From: Planctomycetota bacterium
GTDB taxonomy: Bacteria; Planctomycetota; Phycisphaerae; Phycisphaerales; Phycisphaeraceae
Length of the DNA stretch: 64,000 bases
Direction: 5' to 3'
NCBI GenBank assembly: GCA_021413865.1
Contig: JAIOPN010000023.1
Coordinates: forward strand, 1 to 64,000
The notes under the pieces were generated by a model that worked only from the letters and a program-made list of their open reading frames with translations, searched no databases and was not told the origin of the DNA. This document shows positions 1,323 through 37,881 of this stretch, piece after piece; position 1 is the first letter of the stretch; each line of letters begins with the position of its first letter. A program made the translations under genes and the position numbers.

Positions 1323-1605
1323 TACGCCGCGAGGATGGGTCTCACGTCTGCTGTCCGTCACAGGACGGTTGGCGTGTAACTAAAACCGGTTGTTCGTTTT
1401 GCCACGAGCAGCCGGCTCAACATCCTTGTGATGCCTGAAGTAATTCAGAAATGGAAGTTGAGTATCCCTCCTCCATCTTCGGATGGGGTTGGGAGGAACG
1501 GTCCTGAGTACCGTTCCACGACCGGCCCGGTAAAAAACCGGGTCGTCAGGCAAACCTTCAAGGAACGCAACCCCAGCGGGGCAACCCGTTGGTGCAGCGA
1601 ACTAC

Positions 1606-3118
<1,513 letters not shown>

Positions 3119-3497: not shown

Positions 3498-3532
3498 CCC
3501 GCAGCCCCGCCATGCCAATGCGGGGCTTCTTC
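3498..3532 (+). repeat. direct repeat B, copy 1 (hairpin)
   Basis: A 35-nt sequence identical to 4551-4585. It forms a hairpin AGCCCCGC / GCGGGGCT with a CATGCCAAT loop followed by TCTTC, so it can act as an intrinsic terminator. The two copies flank the secreted protein gene 3586-4428 in the same orientation. Confidence 0.75.
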
Positions 3533-4504: not shown

Positions 4505-4537
4505 GTAGGGTGCGTGGAGCGAAGCGCAACGCACCAC
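4505..4537 (+). repeat. dispersed palindromic repeat A, copy 1
   Basis: This 33-nt sequence (GTAGGGTGCGTGGAGCGAAG and 13 more bases) recurs with one or a few changes at 17216-17248 and, inverted, at 17329-17361. It is itself an imperfect palindrome: GGTGCGT pairs with ACGCACC around a GC-rich core. It resembles REP-type intergenic repeats. It lies after the stop of the secreted protein gene and could serve as a terminator. Confidence 0.7.
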
Positions 4538-4550
4538 CGCGCCGCCACCC

Positions 4551-4585
4551 CCCGCAGCCCCGCCATGCCAATGCGGGGCTTCTTC
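4551..4585 (+). repeat. direct repeat B, copy 2 (hairpin)
   Basis: Identical to 3498-3532 over 35 nt, with the stem AGCCCCGC / GCGGGGCT followed by TCTTCTTCCC. It lies downstream of the secreted protein gene and 21 nt before the left end of the ISL3-type element. Confidence 0.75.
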
Positions 4586-15300: not shown

Positions 15301-16689
15301 ATGGGCAAGGAAAGCGACATTCCGACGGCACAGGTCCTGGTGGTGGACGACGAGGTCGATCACGGCGAGGTCATGGCCGAGGTCCTGCGCCGGATGGGGC
15401 ACGTCTGCACGATCGTGAACAGCCTTACGCAGGCGGAGGATGAGCTCAAGCACGGACAGTTCGACCTGATCGTCACCGACCTGGTGATGGACGGCCAGGA
15501 AGACGGGCTCAAGGTGCTCGCCGCGGCGAAGAAAACACAGACCAACGCCGAGACGATCATGGTCACGGCGCACGGCGACGTGCCGACCTGCAAGACCGCG
15601 CTCAAGCAGGGGGCGTACGACTTCATCGAGAAGCCGCTCGACCTGGACGTCTTCCGCACGCTGTCGCAGCACGCGATCGACGCCGTGATGTTGAAAGGCC
15701 AGAACGCGCAGCTGCGCGAGCGGCTCGATGAACAGTTCGGCTTCGAGGGGATCATCGGTACGTCGCCCGCCATCCGCCGCGTGATCGCCACGATGAAGCA
15801 GATCGCGCCCAGCACCATCCCGGTGCTCATCACCGGCGAATCCGGCACGGGCAAGGAACTCGTCGCGCAGGCGATCCACAACAACTCCCGCCGGGCAAAA
15901 GAACATTTTGTCCCGCTCAACTGCGCGGGGCTCACCGAGTCGATTCTGGAAGATGAACTGTTCGGCCACGTGCGCGGCGCGTTCACCGGCGCGGAGAAGG
16001 ACCGCCAGGGCCGCTTCGAGTACGCCGACGGGGGCACGCTCTTCCTCGACGAGGTCGGTGACATGCCGCTGATGATGCAGGCCAAGCTGCTGCGCGTGCT
16101 GGAGAGCGGCGAGGTCGTCCGGCTGGGGTCGAACGAGTCGCGGCACGTCGATGTCCGCCTCATCTCGGCGACGAACCGTCCGCTCGATGAGATGGTCAAG
16201 GCCAAGAGCTTCCGCGAGGATTTGTTTTTCCGCATCAAGGGTGTGGAGGTCCACCTGCCGCCGCTCCGCGAGCGGCGCGAGGACATCCCGCAGCTTACGC
16301 GTCACTTCGCCGAGCGGTTCGCCAAGCAGATGAACCGGAGCGTGCCGGAGATCGCCGAGGAGACGCAGGCGGCGCTGATGCGTTTCGACTGGCCGGGCAA
16401 CGTGCGTCAGCTCATGAACGCGATGCAGAACATGATCGTCGTCGCCGAGGGGGATAAACTGGAACCGCGCCACCTGCCCGAGGAGATCACGGCCGGGGCG
16501 TCACCGGGCGGCGCCGGCGGCGGGGCGAACGACGCGATCACCGCCGGGCTGAGCCTCGATCAGCTTGAAAAGCAGGCCATCCGCAACGCGCTCCGCATCC
16601 ACCAGGGCAACCGCGAGGCCGCGGCGAAGATGCTGGGCATCGGCGAACGCACCCTCTATCGCAAGCTCAAAGAGTATGGTTTGAAGTAA
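15301..16689 (+). CDS. NtrC-type sigma-54 response regulator
   Basis: A 462-residue enhancer-binding activator. The receiver domain (1-125) has the acidic pair in VVDDEVDHG, phospho-acceptor Asp60 in VTDLVMDG, the Thr switch in MVTAHGD and Lys in DFIEKPLDL. The AAA+ domain (~145-385) has Walker A GESGTGKE (179-186), the sigma-54-contacting loop GAFTGA (226-231) intact, Walker B GTLFLDEVGDM and arginine fingers in the RLISATNR region. A glycine-rich linker (GASPGGAGGGAND) leads to a Fis-type HTH at the C-terminus (NREAAAKMLGIGERTLYRKL). No sensor kinase is adjacent, so its partner is unlinked. Targets unknown; the LEPR-XLL leader elements 7-10 kb away have sigma-54-like spacing. Confidence 0.95.
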   Translation: MGKESDIPTAQVLVVDDEVDHGEVMAEVLRRMGHVCTIVNSLTQAEDELKHGQFDLIVTDLVMDGQEDGLKVLAAAKKTQTNAETIMVTAHGDVPTCKTALKQGAYDFIEKPLDLDVFRTLSQHAIDAVMLKGQNAQLRERLDEQFGFEGIIGTSPAIRRVIATMKQIAPSTIPVLITGESGTGKELVAQAIHNNSRRAKEHFVPLNCAGLTESILEDELFGHVRGAFTGAEKDRQGRFEYADGGTLFLDEVGDMPLMMQAKLLRVLESGEVVRLGSNESRHVDVRLISATNRPLDEMVKAKSFREDLFFRIKGVEVHLPPLRERREDIPQLTRHFAERFAKQMNRSVPEIAEETQAALMRFDWPGNVRQLMNAMQNMIVVAEGDKLEPRHLPEEITAGASPGGAGGGANDAITAGLSLDQLEKQAIRNALRIHQGNREAAAKMLGIGERTLYRKLKEYGLK

Positions 16690-17215: not shown

Positions 17216-17248
17216 GTAGGGTGCGTGGAGCGGAGCGCAACGCACCAC
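17216..17248 (+). repeat. dispersed palindromic repeat A, copy 2
   Basis: 33 nt matching 4505-4537 with one change, and facing an inverted copy at 17329-17361. Together with flanking GGC the two can pair over about 35 nt with an 80-nt loop, between the convergent ends of ispF and the LEPR-XLL gene, where a bidirectional terminator is expected. Confidence 0.75.
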
Positions 17249-17328: not shown

Positions 17329-17361
17329 TTGGTGCGTTACGCTCCGCTCCACGCACCCTAC
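17329..17361 (-). repeat. dispersed palindromic repeat A, copy 3 (inverted)
   Basis: Inverted copy of 17216-17248 with two differences in 33 nt. It ends 4 nt before the stop codon of the convergent LEPR-XLL gene. Confidence 0.75.
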
Positions 17362-17365
17362 GCCT

Positions 17366-20300
17366 TTACACCAGCAACCGCGCCTCGAAATCGTTGACCG
17401 TGGTGGTCGCCCCGTCGAGCGGGAGCGCGATCACGCCGTTGACGCTGCTCGCGGTGAGCTTCTTGACTGAATCCGCGGCGATGCCCAGGAGGTCGGTGCC
17501 GTTGCCAATTTCGACCAGGCCGAGCGTGGCGAAGCCGGCGATGACGCCGGCGGCGACGCGCGTGTCGGTGAAGCTGTTGACTTTGATGGACGCGAGCGGC
17601 GCGGCGGGGGCGGTGTAATCGGCGAGGTTGGTGGGCAGATTGGCGGCGGCGAAGTCCAGCGGGAGGCCGACAAAGATTTCGCTGCCGGTGATCGAAGCGG
17701 CGGAGAGTGCGCCGACGCCGCCGAGAGAGCGGAGGGTAAGGGAGTCGATGCTCCCCTTGACGGCGAGTCCAGCGAGGGTGAGCACCTTGGGGGCGTTGGC
17801 GTCGTAGGCTCGGTTGAGCGTGATGCTGGTGTTCGCCAGGACATTGCCCCCGACGGTGGACTTGCCCAGCGAGTTGATGTTGATGGTCCCGCCCAGGTCC
17901 TGCTTGAGGGTGAGCTTGCCCAGGTCCAGCCCGGTTGCGCCGGAGCTGATCGACCACGCCGAGGCGGTGGAGAGCGCGGCGACGGAGCCGACGGGGCCCG
18001 CGATAGTCCACGCGCCGCCGAGGATCGAGCCGGTGAACTTGAAGGAGGAGATCGTGGACTTCGCCAACACGTTGCCGGTGAGCGTGACGTCGGCGGCCAT
18101 GTCGGATTTGAGCGTGAGCGACTTGGCGGTCGGGGCGGTGAGGCTGCCGTCGAGCCAGTCGGTGGCGGTGATCGCCCCCGCGTCGTCGTCCACGGTGAGG
18201 TCGGCCTCCTTGATCGAGGCGGCCTTGAGGGACTTGAGCGTCGAGCTGATGTGGGCGGTGAAGTCGTCGGTGTCGCCGCCAACGGTGACCGCGCCGACCG
18301 CGCCGGTGATCTGCCAGTCGGCGTCCTTCAGCGCACCGGCGATCTTGGCGGAGTTGAGCGTCTTCGTGCCGTTGTCGGTCAGGACGAGGTCGGCCTCGAA
18401 ATTGCCTGCGATGGCGAACTTCGAATTGCCCTTGACCGACAGCGTGCCGATGGAGGGGGCGGTGATGACGCTCTGCGCGGCGGAGTCGGTCCAGTTGGTG
18501 ACGGTGAGGGACTTGATGGGCATCGCGGAGGTGAGCGAAGCGTCGGTGACGAGGTTGAAGACGAGGGTGACTGGGGCGTTGGGGTCGGCGCCGGCGCCGA
18601 TGTCGATGACCGCGCCGGACTCGACGGTGTCGAGCGTGACCGAGCCGATGCCGTTGGGCGCGCTGAGGGTGCCGGTGAGGCGCGCGGTCTTGGCGACGAG
18701 TTTGCCCAGCGCGCCCGAGCCGGTGGGCGGCGACGATCCGCCGGGGGCGGCGGCGAGGGAGGAGAAGCTCAATGGCTGGAGAGGGGCGACGGTCTGGCTG
18801 AGCGTGAGGTTGCGGATGATGAGTTCGGCTAGCTTGGTCGTGATGGTGAGGCTGGACGTAACGCCCGTATTAGTGAGGACCACGTCATAGGAGCCGTCGT
18901 CATTGGGGGTGAACTCGGCGGTGCCGCCGCCGCTGAGCTTGATGGTCGCGGTCGCCCCTTCGGTGCCGGGGATGGGGATGGTGAGGGGCACGGTCTTGTC
19001 GTTGACCTCGCCGGCCAGGAGCACGACGGGGACGTACGCGCCGGCGGGGGCGGCGTTGTCGGCATCGATGGTCTCGGCGACGGCGAAGTTCGTGTCGATG
19101 TCCGCCACGATGTAGTAATTGCCGCCGGCGAGGGTCGAAGGCAGGGTGAGATCGAACGTGAAGTCCTGATGGTCACCCGAAATCATCTGCATCTTCTTGA
19201 TGTTGACGACCTGGAAGGGCACGTCGAGCGAGTCAAAGAGCTGGTTATTGCTGGAGAGGTAGTAGGTGACCTGCACGTTGGAGGCATCGACGTCACCGAT
19301 CGCGGCGTCGTAGACGCGCAGAACGCTGGTGACCTGGCTGCCGGGGACGACCTGGTCGTCGGGCGTGACGACGTGGCCGTTGACGCTGGTGGAGAGAATC
19401 TGGCCGATCAGGTTGGGCTTGGAGCCGGCGGGCACGGGGTTGATCGTGCCGGTGATGGGGAAGATGAAGTTGTTCTGCACGTCGCCGCTGTTATTAGGGA
19501 TGGAGATATTGCCGGAGAAGGTTCCGATCGTCAGGCCGGCGAGGTCCACGGTGAAGGTGTCACTCTGGCCCGCAGCGAGGCTGGTGGCGAGCGCTTCGGT
19601 GATGGTGTACCCGCTGGGCACGGTGGGCGTGCCGAGTGTAAGGGTGGTGCTGCCGTTGTTGGTGACGGTGAAGATTTTCGTGAGGTGAGTGACCGCGGTG
19701 CGGACGGAGGTGCCGAAGTCGATGGCCGTGCCCTGGCCCGAGGTGATGGCCGTTGCGCCCTGCACGACGGCGATGAGCGGGGTGAGGATCGGCGGCGTGG
19801 TGACCTCGCCGGAGACCGGAATGGTGAAGCTGGGCGTCACCGAGTCGTCGCTGGCGATGGTGATGTTGCCGCTGAAAGCCCCGGTCGCGGTGGTCAGCAT
19901 CCTGACGGAGAAGGTGTCGGATTCACCCGGGGCGAGCGAGGTGGTCAGGGCGTCGTCGCCGACCGCGAAGCCGTTGGGGAGTGTGATGGGGTTTAGGGTG
20001 AGCGTGGTTTGGCCGTTGTTGCGGACGCGGAAGGTGCGGGTAGTGTCGGTGGTTTTGAGTGCGACGCTGCCGAAGTCGATGGCGGTGTTACCGCTGGTGA
20101 CATTGGTGAAGCCGTCGAAGACACGGATGGTATGGGTCGGCGGCGCGAAGGTGATGTCGAAGCGGTAGTTCGTGGCCGCGCCGCTGTAGTGATTGATCTG
20201 GACGTAATAGGTGCCGGGGGTGAGGTCGGCCTCCAGGAAAGCGGGCGTGAAGCCCTGCTGATAGGCGAGGCCCATGTTCTGAGTGGAAGTGCTCAGCGCG

Positions 20301-22381
20301 ATGCTCGTCCCGCCCACGTCGGAGGTGGTCGTGACGCGGATGCGCTGGGTGGCCTCGATGGTGAACTTGTAAACGTCGAACCGGTCGCGCTGATCGCCGC
20401 CGTTGGGCGGTTCGACGAACTCGGTGAGGTTGGTCGAGTTGGTGAGCGTGCCCAGGTCGCGTGCAGAGGGCTTGTCCCCACCAGCGGTGTCGGTGGGTGG
20501 GATGGCACCGTTGATGAGCACATAGATGCCGGCGGCATCGGCGAAGCCGCCCGCGTCGGCGGTGAAGACCAGGTCCGTTGCCGTACCGGAGTCGAAGTAC
20601 ACCGGGAGCGGGCTTTCGTTGACCGTCACGCTGGAGCCGAAGACGACCGATGGGGCCAGCGCGGCGTAGGGCGCGCCGGCGGTGCTGCTGAGAATGGTGA
20701 GCCTCTCGGCCTCGCCGATGGTGGCGTTGTTGGCGTAGCCGAGCACGTCGGGGCTGCCTTCGCCGGTGTAGTCCGCCAGCGGGTCCATCGGGAAACCCTG
20801 AAACGCATTGAGGTGGACGGGCATCGCGGTGAGCACGATGGGCGTCGTGGCGGTGAAGGTGCGGTCGCCGTTGTTGATGACGGTCCCCATGGAATTGGCC
20901 AGGACCGAGTCGAACCCGCTATAGACGACGTCGAGCAGGTTGTCGCCGTTGATGTCGATGATGCGCGGGTAATCGGGCACGGTGATCGGGGGGACGACGG
21001 TCACGCCCGGGTCGGTGAAGGCGAGGCTGCTGCCGGTGCTGTTGTTGAAGAAGAAGGTGACCTTGCCGGCACCGCTGGGCTGCTGGGTGATGACGAGGTC
21101 GAGGAGCCCGTCGTGATCGACGTCCATGACGCTGGCGGAGGAGTTTTGAAAGAAGTCGGTGACATCGATGCTCTGCGCCAGGGTGAAGCCGCCGTTACCG
21201 TCGTTGCGGGCGATGTGGATGGTGAGCGTGTGGGTCTGGTCGAGGTAGCCGCCCTCGAGGAGGATGAGGTCGTTGCTGCCGTTGTTGTCCAGGTCCGCGG
21301 TGAGCAGCGGCTGGAGCGGTTTCCCGCCCGAGAGCTCGCCGTAGAACCCGTTGGCGAACGTGCTCGATGTGAAGGTTTTGGTGAAGGTGCCGGCGGAGGT
21401 GCCGTTGTTGCGGAGGACGACGACCGACGCGGGGTTGCCGATGGTGAAGGGCGTGCCGCTGTAGGCGACGATGTCGAGGCTGCTGTCGGCCGAGAGCTGG
21501 CGGAGGCCGATGAGGGTGAGATTGTCCGTGTTGTTGGTGAAGCTGGCGGTGGTGTTGTAGGTGCCGTTGGCCTTGCCCAGGTAAACGGAGAGGGCGGTGG
21601 TGAGGTTGCTCTGGGCATCGACCCCGCTGAGGTAGGTCATCACCATGTCTTTGATGCCGTCGCCGTTCACGTCGTCCTTGTAGGAGGTGTTGGTCGGCCC
21701 GGAGCCGAGCGTCGTTGAGACCGGGGCGGCGAGCTTGCCGTCCCCCGTGCCCAGGGCGACGGTCATCTTGTTGGCGCTCTGCAGGACGACGTCGGCATTG
21801 CCGTCGCCGTTCATGTCGAACAGGCTTGTGACTAGGTCGTTAATCGTGGCGCTGCCCAGGTCGGTGGAGGCGTTGGGCAGGGAGAAGGTGCCGTCGGCCG
21901 CGCCGATGAAGACGTCGATGAAGCGGTGGGTGTTGAAGGTGGCGTCGTCGTCGCGGAGGACGACGACGTCGAGGTGGCCGTCACCGTTGAGGTCGGCGGC
22001 AAGGACTTTTTCGATGGTCGCCGGCGAAGCGTAGCGTGCGATGGCGTATTCCTTCATCGATCCGTCGGCGCGGCCCAGGAGGGCCGAGACGTTGGCGGAG
22101 GAGTGAACGCCATCGCCGTTGAGGGGGGTGCCGAAATACTGCACGATCATGTCGCACACGCCATCGGCGTTGAGGTCGGTGCGGGGGGTGTTCGCGTCCC
22201 CGCCGCCCGGGCCGACGATGATCGTCGGGGCGCCGCCCAGCGGGGTGAAGGCGGCGGTGGCGAAGGGGGAGGCGTCCAGGAATACGCGCTGCTCCATGGC
22301 CTCGAAGAGCGTGCGGAGCGTGGGCAACGCCCGTGCGGGGCGCGACGCGCGGTATCGGCGGCGCGGCGGGGGGGTCTTCAT
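17366..22381 (-). CDS. giant LEPR-XLL-type secreted protein with FG-GAP, PPC, ASH and CARDB domains
   Basis: A 1671-residue surface or secreted protein. The start at 22381 (MKTPPPRRRYRASRPARALP) leads into TLRTLFEAMEQRVFLDASPF, a planctomycete LEPR-XLL-type N-terminal signal. Residues ~60-550 carry at least seven FG-GAP/VCBS calcium-type repeats (LNADGVCDMIV, LNGDGHLDVVV, MNGDGNADVVL, VNGDGIKDMVM, LDNNGSNDLIL, VDHDGLLDLVI, INGDNLLDVVY). A pre-peptidase C-terminal domain follows (DRFDVYKFTIEATQRIRVTT), then two choice-of-anchor/ASH domains (IDFGSVALKTT..., IDFGTSVRTA...), a CARDB domain (VPGSQVTSVLRVYD), and a C-terminal ~550-residue Ser/Thr/Ala-rich repeat region likely forming a beta-solenoid (KSLTVTNWTDS, KSLKAASIKEADL). 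An upstream in-frame start would include the leader element as protein. Adhesion or matrix role inferred. Confidence 0.85.
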   Translation of the reverse strand: MKTPPPRRRYRASRPARALPTLRTLFEAMEQRVFLDASPFATAAFTPLGGAPTIIVGPGGGDANTPRTDLNADGVCDMIVQYFGTPLNGDGVHSSANVSALLGRADGSMKEYAIARYASPATIEKVLAADLNGDGHLDVVVLRDDDATFNTHRFIDVFIGAADGTFSLPNASTDLGSATINDLVTSLFDMNGDGNADVVLQSANKMTVALGTGDGKLAAPVSTTLGSGPTNTSYKDDVNGDGIKDMVMTYLSGVDAQSNLTTALSVYLGKANGTYNTTASFTNNTDNLTLIGLRQLSADSSLDIVAYSGTPFTIGNPASVVVLRNNGTSAGTFTKTFTSSTFANGFYGELSGGKPLQPLLTADLDNNGSNDLILLEGGYLDQTHTLTIHIARNDGNGGFTLAQSIDVTDFFQNSSASVMDVDHDGLLDLVITQQPSGAGKVTFFFNNSTGSSLAFTDPGVTVVPPITVPDYPRIIDINGDNLLDVVYSGFDSVLANSMGTVINNGDRTFTATTPIVLTAMPVHLNAFQGFPMDPLADYTGEGSPDVLGYANNATIGEAERLTILSSTAGAPYAALAPSVVFGSSVTVNESPLPVYFDSGTATDLVFTADAGGFADAAGIYVLINGAIPPTDTAGGDKPSARDLGTLTNSTNLTEFVEPPNGGDQRDRFDVYKFTIEATQRIRVTTTSDVGGTSIALSTSTQNMGLAYQQGFTPAFLEADLTPGTYYVQINHYSGAATNYRFDITFAPPTHTIRVFDGFTNVTSGNTAIDFGSVALKTTDTTRTFRVRNNGQTTLTLNPITLPNGFAVGDDALTTSLAPGESDTFSVRMLTTATGAFSGNITIASDDSVTPSFTIPVSGEVTTPPILTPLIAVVQGATAITSGQGTAIDFGTSVRTAVTHLTKIFTVTNNGSTTLTLGTPTVPSGYTITEALATSLAAGQSDTFTVDLAGLTIGTFSGNISIPNNSGDVQNNFIFPITGTINPVPAGSKPNLIGQILSTSVNGHVVTPDDQVVPGSQVTSVLRVYDAAIGDVDASNVQVTYYLSSNNQLFDSLDVPFQVVNIKKMQMISGDHQDFTFDLTLPSTLAGGNYYIVADIDTNFAVAETIDADNAAPAGAYVPVVLLAGEVNDKTVPLTIPIPGTEGATATIKLSGGGTAEFTPNDDGSYDVVLTNTGVTSSLTITTKLAELIIRNLTLSQTVAPLQPLSFSSLAAAPGGSSPPTGSGALGKLVAKTARLTGTLSAPNGIGSVTLDTVESGAVIDIGAGADPNAPVTLVFNLVTDASLTSAMPIKSLTVTNWTDSAAQSVITAPSIGTLSVKGNSKFAIAGNFEADLVLTDNGTKTLNSAKIAGALKDADWQITGAVGAVTVGGDTDDFTAHISSTLKSLKAASIKEADLTVDDDAGAITATDWLDGSLTAPTAKSLTLKSDMAADVTLTGNVLAKSTISSFKFTGSILGGAWTIAGPVGSVAALSTASAWSISSGATGLDLGKLTLKQDLGGTININSLGKSTVGGNVLANTSITLNRAYDANAPKVLTLAGLAVKGSIDSLTLRSLGGVGALSAASITGSEIFVGLPLDFAAANLPTNLADYTAPAAPLASIKVNSFTDTRVAAGVIAGFATLGLVEIGNGTDLLGIAADSVKKLTASSVNGVIALPLDGATTTVNDFEARLLV

Positions 22382-22419
22382 GATGTCTCGGTCCCGTTCT
22401 TGGATGCGGACGGCTTTTT

Positions 22420-22468
22420 TTTTCTCACCACCGACGACAAGCCGCACAGGCACGGGTACAGCCACGGC
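22420..22468 (-). promoter_or_regulatory. conserved LEPR-XLL leader element, copy 1
   Basis: A 49-nt block that agrees at 44 positions with 25067-25115; both lie 26-38 nt upstream of a LEPR-XLL gene start on the minus strand. It can fold as GCCG-u-GGC / GCC-CGGC around an almost invariant GUACCCGU loop, followed by a conserved GGUGGUGAGAAAA tail. TGGC (from 22464) and GC (22451-22450) also have the GG-to-GC spacing of sigma-54 -24/-12 promoters. In the frame of the gene it would encode AVPVPVRLVVGGEK. Which reading is right is open. Confidence 0.6.
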
Positions 22469-22577
22469 AGGCCGCGCGTCCGCAGAGCAACCAAGTATCC
22501 GCTCACGCCGCGCGATCGTCAACTATTTTTGCCGCGTGTTGCGAGATCATTGCCCGGCGATTCCCGCGAGGCGGAGT

Positions 22578-25040
22578 TCAGGTGATCTTGAACTCACCGT
22601 TGGTTTCCAGGATGACGCCGATGCCGTCCTGGTAGATGCGGACGGTGGTCTTCCCGGTCTCGTTGGCGAGATTGGCGCCAAAGGTGATGGTCTTGCCGTC
22701 GAGGTTCTCGAGGGGGAGGTTGTTAAAGATCATCGTGGTGAATTGGGCCTGGGTGACGACGCCGGGGGCGCTCGTCGTGAGCGAGAAGGCCCCCTGGTGG
22801 GCGAGGAAGGGTGTGCCAAGGCTGTAGTTGTAGGTGTAGATGCCCGTGACGCCGTTCGTGGAGACGAAGTTGCCCAACTCCTGAATGTTGAAATGGACGT
22901 TGTCACCAGTGATCGGGGTGTGGCTGGTCATGGTGAGGGTGAAGGTGTCGCCAAAGAGGAGCAGGTACGGCGGGGGCAGGCTGACGGTTACGGTGCCCAC
23001 GCAGGGGAGCTCGTTTCCGAGTTCCTGGGTGTCCACGAAGCCGCTGACGGGGATCATCTTGGCGACGATCTGGTACACACCGTTTTCAGCGAGCGTGTCG
23101 GGCAGGGTGGTGTCGAGGATGAAGGACTTGGAGGTCGTGGAACCCACGCCGGCCGCGAGGCTCAGCGGGGTGTCGCGGCTGCCGATGACCACGTCCGCCG
23201 CCGCCTGATCGGTCCGGTGGGCGAGGAATTGGATCGTCACCACGCCGTTGACCGGGACGTTGCCGCGGTTGTGGAGCGTGACGAACGCCTTTGCGCTGTT
23301 GCCCGCCACCGCGGTCTGTGCGTAGCTGTGACCCAGGTCGATGATGGAGACGTCGGTGAACGCCTGGGCGGTCGTGTAGGTCTCACCGTCGGTGGCCTCG
23401 TTGTTGGTCTCGTCAAGTTCCGCGATGCGGTTGTCCGGATCGACGATGGCGAAGATGCCGTAGTCGCCGGGGGCCATGTTCGCGGGGAAGAGGACCTTGG
23501 CGGTAACGGTCTTGACGTTGTGCGCCGTGTCGAGGCCGGCGATGGAGACGTTGCTCTGCAGGCCGATCAGCGCGTCCTGGGAATCATCCACCGCGTCATT
23601 GGGGCGGGCGACGATGCGGACGTTGATCTTGGGGGCGTCGCTGCCGATCGGGGTGCTGCCGGTGTAGGTGATGTTGATGTCGAGCTTGCCGGGCGTGTCC
23701 TGGCTCTGCACCATCGCGGCGGAGACGAGCACGCTGGAGAGCGTGGCGGAGAGGTCGTAATCCGGCTGGTGGACGGTGACGGGCCCGAGCGGGTCGCCCT
23801 CGTTGTCGGTGGCATCGCTGTCGTTGAAACCGATGACGGGGGCGACGATCGGGATGATGTCGTACGCGAGGCCGTCGGTCAGCGTGTTGGCGATCTGGAC
23901 GTTGACCTTGATGGGCTTGCCCTCGGTGCCGGGCTTCATGTTGACGCTGGCATTGGTCTCGCCGATCACAACGTCGAATGACGTGTCCGGCGCGCCGACG
24001 GGACGAGCGACAAGTCTGACGGCCACGACGCCCTTGAGCGGGATGTTGCCCAGGTTGCGGAGGGTGACGGTGCCGACGCCCTTGTCGCCGAGATTGGCGT
24101 TGGCTCCGTAGGGCTGCGTCGCGGAGGAGACAACGACGTCGGTGAACGCGGGGGCAACGTGGATGGTGTCGGCGAGCGTGCCCTCGTTGTCGTCCTCGTC
24201 GGTCTCGGCGATCTGGTGATCGGAATCCACGATGGCGATGACCTTCCAGTCGCCATCCGCGAGGTCGGACGGCAGGAGGACATTGGCGGAGAAGCTCTTG
24301 ATGCCGGCGTCGGACCTGAGGCCGGCGATGTTGCGGCCGGTTAGTAAGCCGATCACGATGTCCTGCGAGGTGCGGTCAATAGGCTCGACGGCGGGGCGGG
24401 CGACGAGCTTGATGCTGATCTTGGGCGGCTTGCCGGTCAGGGGAAACGCCCCGGAATACATGATGTTCACCTTGACCGAACCCCTAATGTCTTTTCCCTC
24501 CACCACGGAGAGAGGCACCTTCGGGTCCGTCACGGTCGCAAACAGGTTGTAGTCCGGCTGCAGAACGGTGACGGCACCGGCCGCGGTGTTGTTGGTCTCA
24601 TCACTCTCGGCGACCTTGCCGAGCGAATCGGTGACGGCGAAGAGCGTGTAGTCACCCGCGACGGTGTCGTAGGGGATCATCACGTTGAACGGGATGTTCA
24701 ACTGATCGCTGATTGAGCCGGCGGCGCCGAGCTTGCCCGCGACCTTGAACGGCTTTCCAAGCGCGATGTCAGTGTTGATGTCGAGCGTGCCGTCGGTGGA
24801 GAGATAGAACTGCACCGAGCCCGCGTTCTTGGCGATCTCGTCGCCGAGGTTCTGCACCTTGACCGTGACCGGGTTGAGCTGGCCCGTGGTGACCTGGCCA
24901 AGGCCGACGAATGCGCCGGTGATGTCCACAGTGAGCAGGTTGCGTGCCTCGAGCGTTTCAAGCATCGGCACGCGCACCGCGGTCCGGCGGCCGGCGTTGA
25001 TGGAACGGAGCACCCGGCGCAGCAGTGGCGTGATTGGCAT
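22578..25040 (-). CDS. LEPR-XLL-type secreted protein built of CARDB repeats
   Basis: An 820-residue protein starting MPITPLLRRVLRSINAGRRT and then MLETLEARNLLTVD, an LEPR-XLL-type N-terminus. The bulk is a train of about five CARDB-type (cell adhesion related) beta-sandwich modules, each ~130 residues, marked by VTVKVQNLGD, VTLRNLGNIPLKGVV, VTLHNRGNVPVNGVV and the recurring DSLGKVAESDETNN / DSDHQIAETDEDDN / DPDNRIAELDETNN motifs. The last ~120 residues (FGDTFTLTMTSHTPITGDNV, then ANETGKTTVRIYQDGIGVIL) form a different terminal domain. No catalytic motif is apparent. It lies 196 bp upstream of the larger LEPR-XLL gene on the same strand and shares the same leader element, so the two are probably co-regulated paralogous surface proteins. 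Confidence 0.85.
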   Translation of the reverse strand: MPITPLLRRVLRSINAGRRTAVRVPMLETLEARNLLTVDITGAFVGLGQVTTGQLNPVTVKVQNLGDEIAKNAGSVQFYLSTDGTLDINTDIALGKPFKVAGKLGAAGSISDQLNIPFNVMIPYDTVAGDYTLFAVTDSLGKVAESDETNNTAAGAVTVLQPDYNLFATVTDPKVPLSVVEGKDIRGSVKVNIMYSGAFPLTGKPPKISIKLVARPAVEPIDRTSQDIVIGLLTGRNIAGLRSDAGIKSFSANVLLPSDLADGDWKVIAIVDSDHQIAETDEDDNEGTLADTIHVAPAFTDVVVSSATQPYGANANLGDKGVGTVTLRNLGNIPLKGVVAVRLVARPVGAPDTSFDVVIGETNASVNMKPGTEGKPIKVNVQIANTLTDGLAYDIIPIVAPVIGFNDSDATDNEGDPLGPVTVHQPDYDLSATLSSVLVSAAMVQSQDTPGKLDINITYTGSTPIGSDAPKINVRIVARPNDAVDDSQDALIGLQSNVSIAGLDTAHNVKTVTAKVLFPANMAPGDYGIFAIVDPDNRIAELDETNNEATDGETYTTAQAFTDVSIIDLGHSYAQTAVAGNSAKAFVTLHNRGNVPVNGVVTIQFLAHRTDQAAADVVIGSRDTPLSLAAGVGSTTSKSFILDTTLPDTLAENGVYQIVAKMIPVSGFVDTQELGNELPCVGTVTVSLPPPYLLLFGDTFTLTMTSHTPITGDNVHFNIQELGNFVSTNGVTGIYTYNYSLGTPFLAHQGAFSLTTSAPGVVTQAQFTTMIFNNLPLENLDGKTITFGANLANETGKTTVRIYQDGIGVILETNGEFKIT

Positions 25041-25066
25041 GATGATTCTCGATGTGACGCGGATCG

Positions 25067-25115
25067 TTTTCTCACCACCCACGACGGGCCGCAAAGGCAC
25101 GGGTACTGCCACGGC
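25067..25115 (-). promoter_or_regulatory. conserved LEPR-XLL leader element, copy 2
   Basis: Matches 22420-22468 at 44 of 49 positions. Differences fall at one hairpin-flank base, one inter-stem base, a TT/CC pair and one tail base; the GTACCCGTGCC core and the GGTGGTGAGAAAA tail are unchanged. In frame with the gene it reads AVPVPLRPVVGGEK. Confidence 0.6.
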
Positions 25116-25185
25116 CGATCGCCGATCCGCGAGTCACAACCGTATCCCCTTGGAGGTACCCGCGTCAATGCCTTTGGGATGATCC

Positions 25186-25214
25186 TTGCATCATTTTGGG
25201 ATATTCACTAAGAT
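25186..25214 (+). promoter_or_regulatory. promoter of rpmB
   Basis: TTGCAT (25186-25191), exactly 17 nt, TAAGAT (25209-25214). Transcription would start near 25221, giving a ~40-nt leader with AGAGGG before the rpmB ATG. Confidence 0.6.
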
Positions 25215-25261
25215 GCCTCGCTCGACTGACCTTGGTTGCATCCGTTTAAGAGGGCCTTCCT

Positions 25262-25537
25262 ATGCCACGCGTTTGCGAATTCACCGGCCGTAAGACCACC
25301 ACTGGCTTCACCTACACGACCCGCGGCAAGGCCAAATACCTCGGCGGCGTGGGTACGAAGGTGACCGGCAAGACCAAGCGTAAGTTCAAGGCCAACATCC
25401 AGACGGTGACGGCCGTGGTTGATGGCACGGTCCGCCGGGTCAAGGTCTCCGCCAAGGCGCTCCGCATGGGTCTGGTGGTCCGCCCGCTGAAGCGGAAGTT
25501 CGCCTACAAGCCGCAGCAAGCCACGCCCGCGGCCTGA
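25262..25537 (+). CDS. rpmB: 50S ribosomal protein L28
   Basis: A 91-residue basic ribosomal protein: MPRVCEFTGRKTTTGFTYTT, then RGKAKYLGGVGTKVTGKTKR, with a C-terminal KVSAKALRMGL. It binds 23S rRNA in the large subunit. L28 begins with a Cys-containing strand as here (RVCEFTGRK). The Ala-rich tail QQATPAA is a small extension. Ribosome-binding site AGAGGG ends 10 nt before the ATG. It precedes dnaG by 323 bp on the same strand, taking the place that rpsU has in the classic macromolecular synthesis operon. Confidence 0.93.
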   Translation: MPRVCEFTGRKTTTGFTYTTRGKAKYLGGVGTKVTGKTKRKFKANIQTVTAVVDGTVRRVKVSAKALRMGLVVRPLKRKFAYKPQQATPAA

Positions 25538-25860
25538 GTTACGGCTCAAGCTTCGTTCGGGTCGCATTTTCACCGTTTTTACGCCGGAAAGAAACTTTTT
25601 ACCGGAAGGTTGACTGGCCCAAGGCCGGTGTTATTGGTTTCAGGTCGAAGCAATGGGGCGAAGAGGGAGACCCGCTCGGTTCGGTCATGGGAATGCCGAC
25701 GGGGCGGAGGGAAAAGAGAGACGCACGGGTCTGGTTGGACCTTTCTCGGGCGGGCAGGGGAGCACGGCAGCGGGTTGGTGGCAGGTCAGGGCGGCGGGCG
25801 AACCACGAAGCTTGCAGTTTTCATGGTTATGCGGTTTCCCCTCGCTTGAGGTGTAGGTAC
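25538..25860 (+). other. rpmB-dnaG intergenic region
   Basis: 323 bp without a credible gene. It contains T- and A-rich tracts (CGTTTTTACG and AACTTTTTACC near 25575-25605), a possible weak promoter TTGACT-16-TATTGG near 25611-25638, and G-rich purine tracts. Open frames running through it continue into dnaG but have no conserved start, so I treat it as leader and promoter for dnaG. Confidence 0.4.
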
Positions 25861-36321: not shown

Positions 36322-37881
36322 TTAGCGCGAAGCGGTCGTGGCCGCCGGCGGTTGGGAGGGCGTTGTCACCACGTCGTTCCGGCCGGTGGGGAAGCCCCCC
36401 GCGTCACGGGCGGTGCTGACCAGACGGCCGCCGGCGAAGCCCAGGATCAACGCGGCGACCGCGGCGATGCCCGCGGCCAGCGGGCGGGAGATGCCCGGCG
36501 TCGAGACGGTGTGGCCCTCGGAATCACCGAAGAAGCAGGCGGAAGCGATGCGGAGGTAATACACCGCCGAGACCGCGCTGTTGAGCACGGCGATGACTAC
36601 CAGGCCGACGAACCCGTGCTGGATCGCCGAGCCAAAGAGGTAGATTTTGCCCAGGAAGCCGATCATCGGCGGCAGCCCCAGGAGCGAGAGCACGGAGAGG
36701 AGCATGACCCCCGCGAGGACGGGGTGCGTACGGACGAGACCGGAGATGTCGTCGAAGGTCTCGGCCTCCTCGCCGCGTGCCTGGAGCGAACCAAGGACGG
36801 CGAACGCGCCGATCGTCGCCAGGCCGTAGGCGACGAGGTAGAAGAGGATGGCCGCGGTGCCGTTGCCCAGCGCGTCGCCCGAGCCGTGCAGCGCCAGGAG
36901 GCCGACGAGCATGTACCCGCTGTGCGCGATGGAACTGTACGCCAGGACGCGTTTGACGTTGGATTGCATGAGGCCAAGGACGTTCCCGACCGTCATTGTG
37001 AGCGCGGCCATGATCCAGAGGAGCCAGGTGATGGCGGGCGGTACATAGCCGTCGGGCAGCAGCCCCAGCAGGGCGATCAGTGCGACGAACCCGGCGGTCT
37101 TGGGGACGAAGGCAAGGAAGGCGGTGACGGCCGTGGTGGCTCCCTGATAAACGTCGGCGGCGTAGAAGTGCATGGGCACGGCCGCGATCTTGAAGGCAAC
37201 GCCCAGCAGCGAGAGCACGATGCCGGTGGTCAGCAGCGGGGATATCCTGCCCTGGGCTGCGATCTGCTGGTTGGCGGCATCGACGATAAGGCTGAAGCTG
37301 GTCTGCCCGGTGGCGCCGTAGATGAGGGCGAAGCCGTAGAGGAAGACGGCCGCCGCCATCGCGCCCAAGAAGAAGTATTTGACGCCGGACTCCTGCGCCT
37401 CGACCCGGTCGCGCGAGGTGGCGACCATGACGTAGGTGGGCAGGCTGGTGAGTTCGAGGGCGAGGAAGAGCCAGACGAGGTCGGAAGCGTCGGCGGTGAG
37501 CATGACGCCGGTGAGGCTGAAGAGGAAGAAGGCGAAGAACTCGCCGCGGATGACCAGGCCCGGCTCGAAGGGCTCGCGGCCGGCCTCGATGTCCCGCGTC
37601 ATCTTCAACTGCACGGGCACCGCGGCGGCGACCATGAGCAGGATCAGGCCCACGGCGACGACGGCGAGCTTGATATAGGGCGTCAGGCCGATGACGCCAC
37701 CGGCGTTGCAGACCTGCGCCGCGACGATCCAGCCGGCGACGAGCAGCGACGCGGCCGCGATCCAGCCGGTGAACCGGCGGATGGCCACGCTCCGGGCCAG
37801 GCCCACGAGCAGGCACAACGCCGCGCCAAGCAGCAGCGCGATCTCGGGCCACACCCCGGCGATTTTCTCCGCCATGTTCAT
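36322..37881 (-). CDS. nuoN: NADH-quinone oxidoreductase subunit N
   Basis: A 519-residue polytopic antiporter-type subunit of complex I that takes part in proton pumping. About 14 transmembrane helices; signatures include VEAQESGVKYFFLGAMAAAV with the key Glu and FFLGA region, KIAAVPMHFYAADVYQGATT with the conserved Lys and His, NVKRVLAYSSIAHSGYML and LPPMIGFLGKIYLF. The ATG at 37881 overlaps the nuoM stop codon by 4 bp (ATGA), which implies translational coupling. The C-terminus ends in a Thr/Pro/Ala tail. Confidence 0.95.
   Translation of the reverse strand: MNMAEKIAGVWPEIALLLGAALCLLVGLARSVAIRRFTGWIAAASLLVAGWIVAAQVCNAGGVIGLTPYIKLAVVAVGLILLMVAAAVPVQLKMTRDIEAGREPFEPGLVIRGEFFAFFLFSLTGVMLTADASDLVWLFLALELTSLPTYVMVATSRDRVEAQESGVKYFFLGAMAAAVFLYGFALIYGATGQTSFSLIVDAANQQIAAQGRISPLLTTGIVLSLLGVAFKIAAVPMHFYAADVYQGATTAVTAFLAFVPKTAGFVALIALLGLLPDGYVPPAITWLLWIMAALTMTVGNVLGLMQSNVKRVLAYSSIAHSGYMLVGLLALHGSGDALGNGTAAILFYLVAYGLATIGAFAVLGSLQARGEEAETFDDISGLVRTHPVLAGVMLLSVLSLLGLPPMIGFLGKIYLFGSAIQHGFVGLVVIAVLNSAVSAVYYLRIASACFFGDSEGHTVSTPGISRPLAAGIAAVAALILGFAGGRLVSTARDAGGFPTGRNDVVTTPSQPPAATTASR

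Follow-up and report, generated by a model that had tools for sequence, protein, structure and literature searches.

The stretch of DNA analyzed here, called the window, comprises the first 64,000 nucleotides (nt) of contig JAIOPN010000023.1 from a Planctomycetota bacterium. Two large genes on its minus strand, A and B, are each preceded by a nearly identical 49-nt block, which lies within a larger unit composed of a sigma-70-like promoter and a predicted RNA hairpin (Table 1). The product of gene A scored 15.4 bits against the LEPR-XLL model (NF012209, NCBIfam; cut-off 17) when searched as a whole protein and 20.5 bits in a search of the genome, that is, under the cut-off in the first search and over it in the second. 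Gene B was not listed by this model in either the whole-protein or the genome search, and its motif, LETLEARNLL, was recognized by eye. An earlier interpretation made from the letters alone (the sequence-only reading) had called both genes LEPR-XLL, an assignment that the genome search bears out for A and that depends on visual recognition for B. From residue 18 onward, B aligns with two LEPR-like genes of the same genome (35% over residues 18-413 and 39% over residues 18-199). Proteins A and B are only weakly similar (best E value, 7e-5), which slightly tempers the earlier statement that the two coding regions share domain architecture and nothing else.

Table 1. Positions of the genes and of the shared upstream features in the window.
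Feature	Position	Strand	Description
Gene A	17366..22381	-	1671-amino acid LEPR-XLL protein; FG-GAP repeats, choice-of-anchor D, DUF1573/Ig-like domains
Gene B	22578..25040	-	820-amino acid CARDB protein; LEPR-XLL-like N-terminal motif (by eye)
49-nt conserved block A	22420..22468	-	P3 and P4, loop GUACCCG, P2 3' strand, GGUGGUGAGAAAA strand
49-nt conserved block B	25067..25115	-	Same features as block A
Structured leader A (predicted), 80 nt	22405..22484	-	Outer stem P1 = 22477-22484 with 22405-22412
Structured leader B (predicted), 74 nt	25058..25131	-	Outer stem P1 = 25124-25131 with 25058-25065
Sigma-70-like promoter, gene A	22494..22522	-	TTGACG - 17 nt - GATACT; 9/12 consensus, passes promoter scan
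Sigma-70-like promoter, gene B	25141..25168	-	TTGACG - 16 nt - GATACG; 8/12 (hand count), hexamers common with A
GGUGGUGAG of A	22424..22432	-	Complement of 16S tail, one mismatch, 42 nt before ATG; -11.0 kcal/mol
GGUGGUGAG of B	25071..25079	-	30 nt before ATG; -11.7 kcal/mol

The two blocks are identical at 44 of 49 positions. Block A ends 38 nt before its ATG at 22381, and block B ends 26 nt before its ATG at 25040; the identity, coordinates, strand, and distances given by the sequence-only reading were all confirmed. The copies are 2.65 kb apart on the same strand, and a two-sequence blastn comparison of the upstream regions gave 79% over 87 columns (E value, 3e-16). When up to three mismatches are allowed, a 26-nt core pattern occurs in the window only at blocks A and B (0.01 sites expected from shuffles). 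Across all 67 contigs of the assembly (4.37 Mb), only these two blocks contain an exact match to a 15-nt core, and five more places match it with one mismatch. A covariance model detected both copies in the genome with E values of 8.7e-21 and 3.3e-16, and otherwise two weak places, the next match having an E value of 0.48 and the other 5.4. In a looser covariance search of the window and 19 other loci, a third window place appeared (37218-37282, plus strand; 22.0 bits, E value 0.044), which we take as chance, as its score is at the level of chance matches elsewhere. No convincing third copy of the leader was found in this genome.

The conserved unit exceeds the 49-nt block, adding an outer stem and, farther upstream, the -10 and -35 hexamers. 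The block is thus real, although not a unit in itself as first proposed: it is the middle of a promoter-plus-hairpin element. Ungapped identity between A and B is 6/6 in the -35 hexamer, 4/16 in the spacer, 5/6 in the -10 hexamer, 2/9 in the linker from -10 to P1, 9/16 in the 5' flank of the block, 44/49 in the block, and 6/9 in the 3' strand of P1. Outside of these, it is 5 or 6/17 from P1 to the ATG and 11/50 in the 50 nt upstream of -35. The spacer, linker, and farther-upstream DNA are thus no more alike than chance predicts, and such patchy conservation is what a functional element would show. This pattern bears on the simplest alternative, that a 5' cassette without special function was duplicated or gene-converted and the block is alike through recent copying between neighbors. 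Such copying would suit an element that has only two copies, close together on one strand of one genome, in a genome that does contain short near-identical repeats. However, with the spacer, linker, and upstream DNA at chance level around a preserved block and preserved hexamers, any copied segment must have come under selection, and the covariation seen in the flanks (below) would not result from gene conversion limited to the 49 nt. The divergence of the linkers around the kept block and hexamers therefore argues for selection over fresh copying, and we consider recent copying unlikely.

The covariation lies in P1, outside of the blocks, which sit within predicted RNA hairpins of 74-80 nt. 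Alignment of the upstream regions showed that the block flanks differ in their letters between copies, yet are self-complementary on each side. On folding, they form an 8-bp stem with strands TGCGGACG and CGTCCGCA in A and CGCGGATC and GATCCGCG in B. In three of the eight P1 pairs, both bases differ between the copies and still pair; five pairs are unchanged, and none is broken (counts from an alignment that omitted 6 nt of A). Over all 23 consensus pairs, 95.7% of cells pair, as compared with 30-45% when partners are slid by 1-3 columns. P2 (GCGnn with GTCGT) has only G-U changes between copies. P3 and P4 contain the arms that the sequence-only reading had named in its RNA-leader proposal (GCCG/CGGC and GGC/GCC), which are the inner helices of the fold. 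The apical loop, GUACCCG, is identical in both copies, as is the 3' strand of the asymmetric internal loop, GGUGGUGAGAAAA.

When the flanks were dinucleotide-shuffled 20,000 times, both copies had a stem of at least eight Watson-Crick pairs in the same register in 8 cases. RNAalifold recovered the consensus structure unaided, and its energy was matched in 7 of 2000 column shuffles with a hand-placed gap and in 22 of 2000 with the MAFFT gap. The opposite strand folds worse (-23.3 vs. -30.3). Six of the eight P1 pairs in A have probabilities of 0.99-1.0, and the inner pairs in B have probabilities of 0.78-0.94. Compensatory changes, the observation proposed at the outset as support for an RNA leader, are thus present in two sequences, and they occur in the outer stem rather than in the arms first named.

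Several observations weigh against a folded leader. All evidence for it comes from two sequences. An 8-bp stem arises from the flanks of a single copy in 2.3% (A) and 14% (B) of shuffles, and a stem of like geometry occurs at 896 of 63,890 positions along the window; P1 in one copy alone is unimpressive, and the common register of both copies is the impressive part. A pair-shuffle control gave 62/500, which is about the minimum possible for two sequences with three double changes. With the MAFFT alignment, just two double-changed pairs are found, one of them at another place. Two further consensus pairs are mismatched in A (columns 16-45 and 25-33, at the ends of P3/P4). For neither sequence is the folding energy clearly better than those of its shuffled versions, with z scores of +0.35, -0.23, +0.31, and -0.93 in one run and -0.74, -1.95, -1.43, and -1.78 in the other. 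The consensus fold of A (-29.3 kcal/mol) is 2.8 kcal/mol above its optimum (-32.1 kcal/mol), and pair probabilities of P2-P4 in A are 0.16-0.36, the inner helices competing with another fold. In addition, promoter B is weak and absent from the promoter-scan listing, and the leader was not convincingly matched in any relative examined among samples from the family, order, and phylum.

On balance, we hold that the promoter-leader cassette is real, common to both genes, and probably functional. We assign a probability of roughly 0.57 to the two genes carrying a common promoter and a folded 5' leader RNA that acts in cis on the message, and our confidence is moderate because there are only two copies.

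Two other pairings were noted in the leaders. The 3' strand of P1 can pair instead with the region before the ATG (22382-22413 in A and 25041-25066 in B) through CCGU/ACGG in A and CGAU/AUCG in B. This 4-bp hairpin falls in the same columns in both copies, an outcome yielded by 2.1% of shuffles, and is a possible switch, although a weak lead. By inspection, UACC of the apical loop could possibly form a pseudoknot with GGUG; these strands are nearly unchanged between copies.

The promoters would place the hairpin at the start of the message, which favors an RNA leader over the sigma-54 and peptide alternatives that the sequence-only reading had left open beside it. Sites of the grade of promoter A occurred on average 0.5 times in shuffles of the 3.7-kb region, and 9 nt separate the -10 hexamer from P1 in each copy. 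By the usual spacing between -10 and start, transcription would begin at P1 or immediately before it. The mRNA therefore probably opens with the element: its initial 75-80 nt, starting no more than a few nt from the hairpin, would fold in each case as one long hairpin, P1-P4. The same position just downstream of a promoter might instead suit a DNA operator, at which a transcription factor bound to the block regulates both genes; the block begins 25 nt after -10 in both copies (9-nt linker plus 16-nt flank), and its sequence is strongly conserved. The double changes in P1 fit a folded strand, though, whereas the half-sites of a protein normally keep their sequence, and the genome has no other convincing copy of the block. 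We regard an operator as decidedly unlikely.

The sequence-only reading had also raised the possibility that TGGC-N8-TGCC is a sigma-54 promoter dependent on the NtrC-type activator encoded at 15301-16689. Its factual parts held: the GG/GC spacing is exact in both copies (12 nt start to start), rpoN is present in the genome, and the activator has receiver, sigma-54 interaction, and Fis-type helix-turn-helix domains along with GAFTGA. Neither site, however, is within two mismatches of TGGCACGN4TTGCW, and the window has 10 further occurrences of TGGC-N8-TGCC, for a total of 12 versus 4.1 expected. The block also extends 29 nt beyond TGCC, and the promoter found upstream is sigma-70-like. Since the hairpin has GGC/GCC arms, a GG...CC pattern resembling sigma-54 sites arises anyway. 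Enrichment of sigma-54-like sites, which had been suggested as a check, was not seen in the window (6 sites with up to two mismatches vs. 10.8 expected). A sigma-54 promoter here seems to us highly improbable. One sigma-54-like site with two mismatches, TGGGATGATCCTTGCA, lies at 25175-25190 (plus strand), some 70 nt upstream of rpmB.

The last of the initial proposals was that the block encodes a conserved N-terminal peptide, MAVPVPxRxVVGGEK, beginning from a GTG within the block and in frame with both proteins. The frame is indeed open in A and B, the distances from element to ATG differ by a whole number of codons (12 nt), and the longest listed open reading frame of B begins at this GTG. 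The four changed codons, however, divide evenly into two synonymous and two replacement changes rather than being mainly synonymous, and the peptides diverge after EK. Upstream of the GTG, A has weak complementarity to the anti-Shine-Dalgarno sequence (-3.2) and B has modest complementarity (-5.9), and the ATG starts give N-termini that by eye resemble those of other LEPR-like genes. An N-terminal extension is thus very unlikely.

How a folded leader might act is suggested by GGUGGUGAG, which is complementary to the 3' tail of the 16S rRNA; the 16S gene in the window ends in GGATCACCTCCTTT. The 20 nt before the ATG interact weakly with this tail (-4.0 kcal/mol in A and -3.0 kcal/mol in B), as compared with -6.3 for the start region of rpmB and -3.0 to -9.3 for nine other LEPR-like genes (five over and four under the family cut-off, with starts of our own choosing). 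Given the weak Shine-Dalgarno complementarity at both starts and the unchanged, strong GGUGGUGAG held in the hairpin, we propose that GGUGGUGAG may be a standby site, whose exposure would be set by the fold and by whatever binds the loops. Lying 42 nt (A) and 30 nt (B) from the start codon, it is too distant for ordinary initiation, a point against a role in ribosome loading, and is read as a possible docking strand rather than as an ordinary Shine-Dalgarno sequence. Two other points count against this role. A and B are not alone in having weak start sites, which occur also at L015 (-3.0), ispF (-3.5), the NtrC-type gene (-3.1), and a menaquinone gene (+1.0). In a control, a site as strong as -11.0 was present in 47 of 600 105-nt stretches drawn at random from the window (8%), and 177 of 14,220 17-nt stretches reached that value. 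Ribosome docking, which this control weakens, is the least supported part of the proposal and is only a proposal. In outline, the leader would act in cis, most likely on ribosome loading, and would co-regulate genes A and B, perhaps with a ligand or protein as partner.

We searched for the leader in relatives, in samples of the family, order, and phylum that overlap; no genome of the same genus appeared in any of these searches. With up to three mismatches, the block was absent from 150 relatives (50 from the family and 100 from the order), and within the family the exact two-segment conserved pattern was found only in this genome. The covariance model, R1, was run with stricter filters and few candidates scored per genome, so that weak relatives could be missed. 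It gave nothing under an E value of 0.15 in 50 other family genomes, three matches in 399 other order genomes (E values 0.02-0.04), and three in 391 other phylum genomes (E values 0.01-0.02); matches at 0.01-0.05 over hundreds of genomes are expected by chance, although distant relatives might be among them. Loci were fetched for 36 R1 matches, including the two real copies, and 14 rows of the family search came without a locus. None of the 34 fetched matches other than the real copies had a LEPR-like motif within 500 nt downstream. Nine weak matches inspected as alignments were partial only, and none retained the whole feature set: L120 retains five of seven apical-loop letters and most of GGUGGUGA, L092 retains GUACCCG, and the alignment of L118 does not display the apical loop. 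Rfam (release 15) found only the 16S rRNA in the window at the gathering threshold, and no family up to an E value of 10 in 22200-25500. An 18-nt core pattern had 44 loci in a contig collection, none titled planctomycete, which we took as chance. The leader patterns had no match in a plasmid collection, nor did two of them in viral contigs.

The suggestion that the element marks LEPR-XLL genes did not hold in the genomes searched. It is absent upstream of 12 other LEPR-like matches in this genome, for which at most 25 of 44 specified positions were found within 400 nt upstream; these include the two genes most like B, and five are over the family cut-off. At an E value of 10, the LEPR-XLL model also gives matches in 7 of 14 control genomes. 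The leader is thus not a general feature of the gene class. Partial matches to gene B (25-35% identity) occur in 9 of 50 other family genomes. We also examined the neighborhood of rpmB in 20 family genomes, fetched out of 44 others with an rpmB match (two of the stretches were short, at contig ends). All 20 fetched genomes had rpmB, and 19 of them had dnaG together with it; in the remaining one, the stretch ended 0.8 kb past rpmB. None had A, B, or ispF beside rpmB by tblastn (1e-4), so that the two genes, in window segment 17212-25262, may represent an insertion specific to this lineage. This comparison, in which orthologs of gene A were sought beside rpmB, offered no orthologous leader.

Other features of the window include two repeats. 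A dispersed repeat, TAGGGTGCGTGGAGCGNAGCGCAACGCACC, occurs at 17217-17246 (plus), 17331-17360 (minus), and 4506-4535 (plus), and has 44 copies in the genome with up to three mismatches (reversed control, 0). By hand count, 34 of these constitute 17 inverted pairs spaced 99-126 nt start to start, and one such pair occupies the space that separates ispF from the end of gene A; the repeat resembles repetitive extragenic palindromic (REP) elements or miniature inverted-repeat transposable elements. A terminator-like hairpin, GCAGCCCCGCCATGCCAATGCGGGGCTTCTTC, is at 3501-3532 and 4554-4585, and has 20 genome copies with up to three mismatches, which keep the loop as well and are more alike than plain terminators require. 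Among same-strand pairs in the window having a common 10-nt word, one other 49-nt pair is as similar as the two blocks (44/49; ends 3546 and 4599), and it overlaps this terminator-like repeat. We rejected the leader as a dispersed repeat or REP element, given 2 genome copies versus 44 and 20 for these two real repeats, and as a terminator or attenuator, there being no minus-strand terminator-like site in 22000-25700. The 16S rRNA has a full-length match at 1605-3114 (plus), and ARAGORN found no tRNA in the window.

A more specific interpretation, which we offer tentatively and consider doubtful, is that of an orphan class of leader RNA. It would begin at the first nucleotides of the transcript, carry a docking strand in an asymmetric internal loop, and have loops bound by a ligand or protein that set joint translation; a knot between the apical loop and GGUG may possibly be part of it. 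If so, two large surface-type proteins would be translated together under control of that ligand or protein. The unchanged loops make the element a testable candidate for a ligand- or protein-binding RNA, and a common folded leader would provide a concrete handle on coordinated control of LEPR-XLL genes. Two copies in one genome are a good lead rather than an established class. In the titles and abstract openings listed by a few, narrow literature searches, nothing addressed regulation of LEPR-XLL genes, and no such leader was described in work on LEPR-XLL, on planctomycete riboswitches and structured RNAs, or on planctomycete transcription starts.

The element can be compared with several known systems. 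Sigma-54 promoters share with it the GG-GC spacing of 12, and differ in that the rest of their consensus is unmet here and the element is downstream of a sigma-70-like promoter. As to LEPR-XLL proteins (NF012209), A matches the model in the genome search and B has a similar motif by eye, while the leader is missing at the genome's 12 other LEPR-like matches. Ribosome standby sites and leaders that sequester the Shine-Dalgarno sequence likewise have a strong anti-Shine-Dalgarno complement within the leader fold and weak start sites of their own; in A and B, the complement is 30-42 nt from the ATG and its strength is matched in random stretches at the frequency given above. Structured cis-regulatory 5' leaders, such as riboswitches and protein-binding leaders, differ in having Rfam families, whereas the element has no Rfam match and only two copies. 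In common with them, it has a hairpin predicted at the 5' terminus, a closing stem that covaries, and unchanged loop residues before the coding region.

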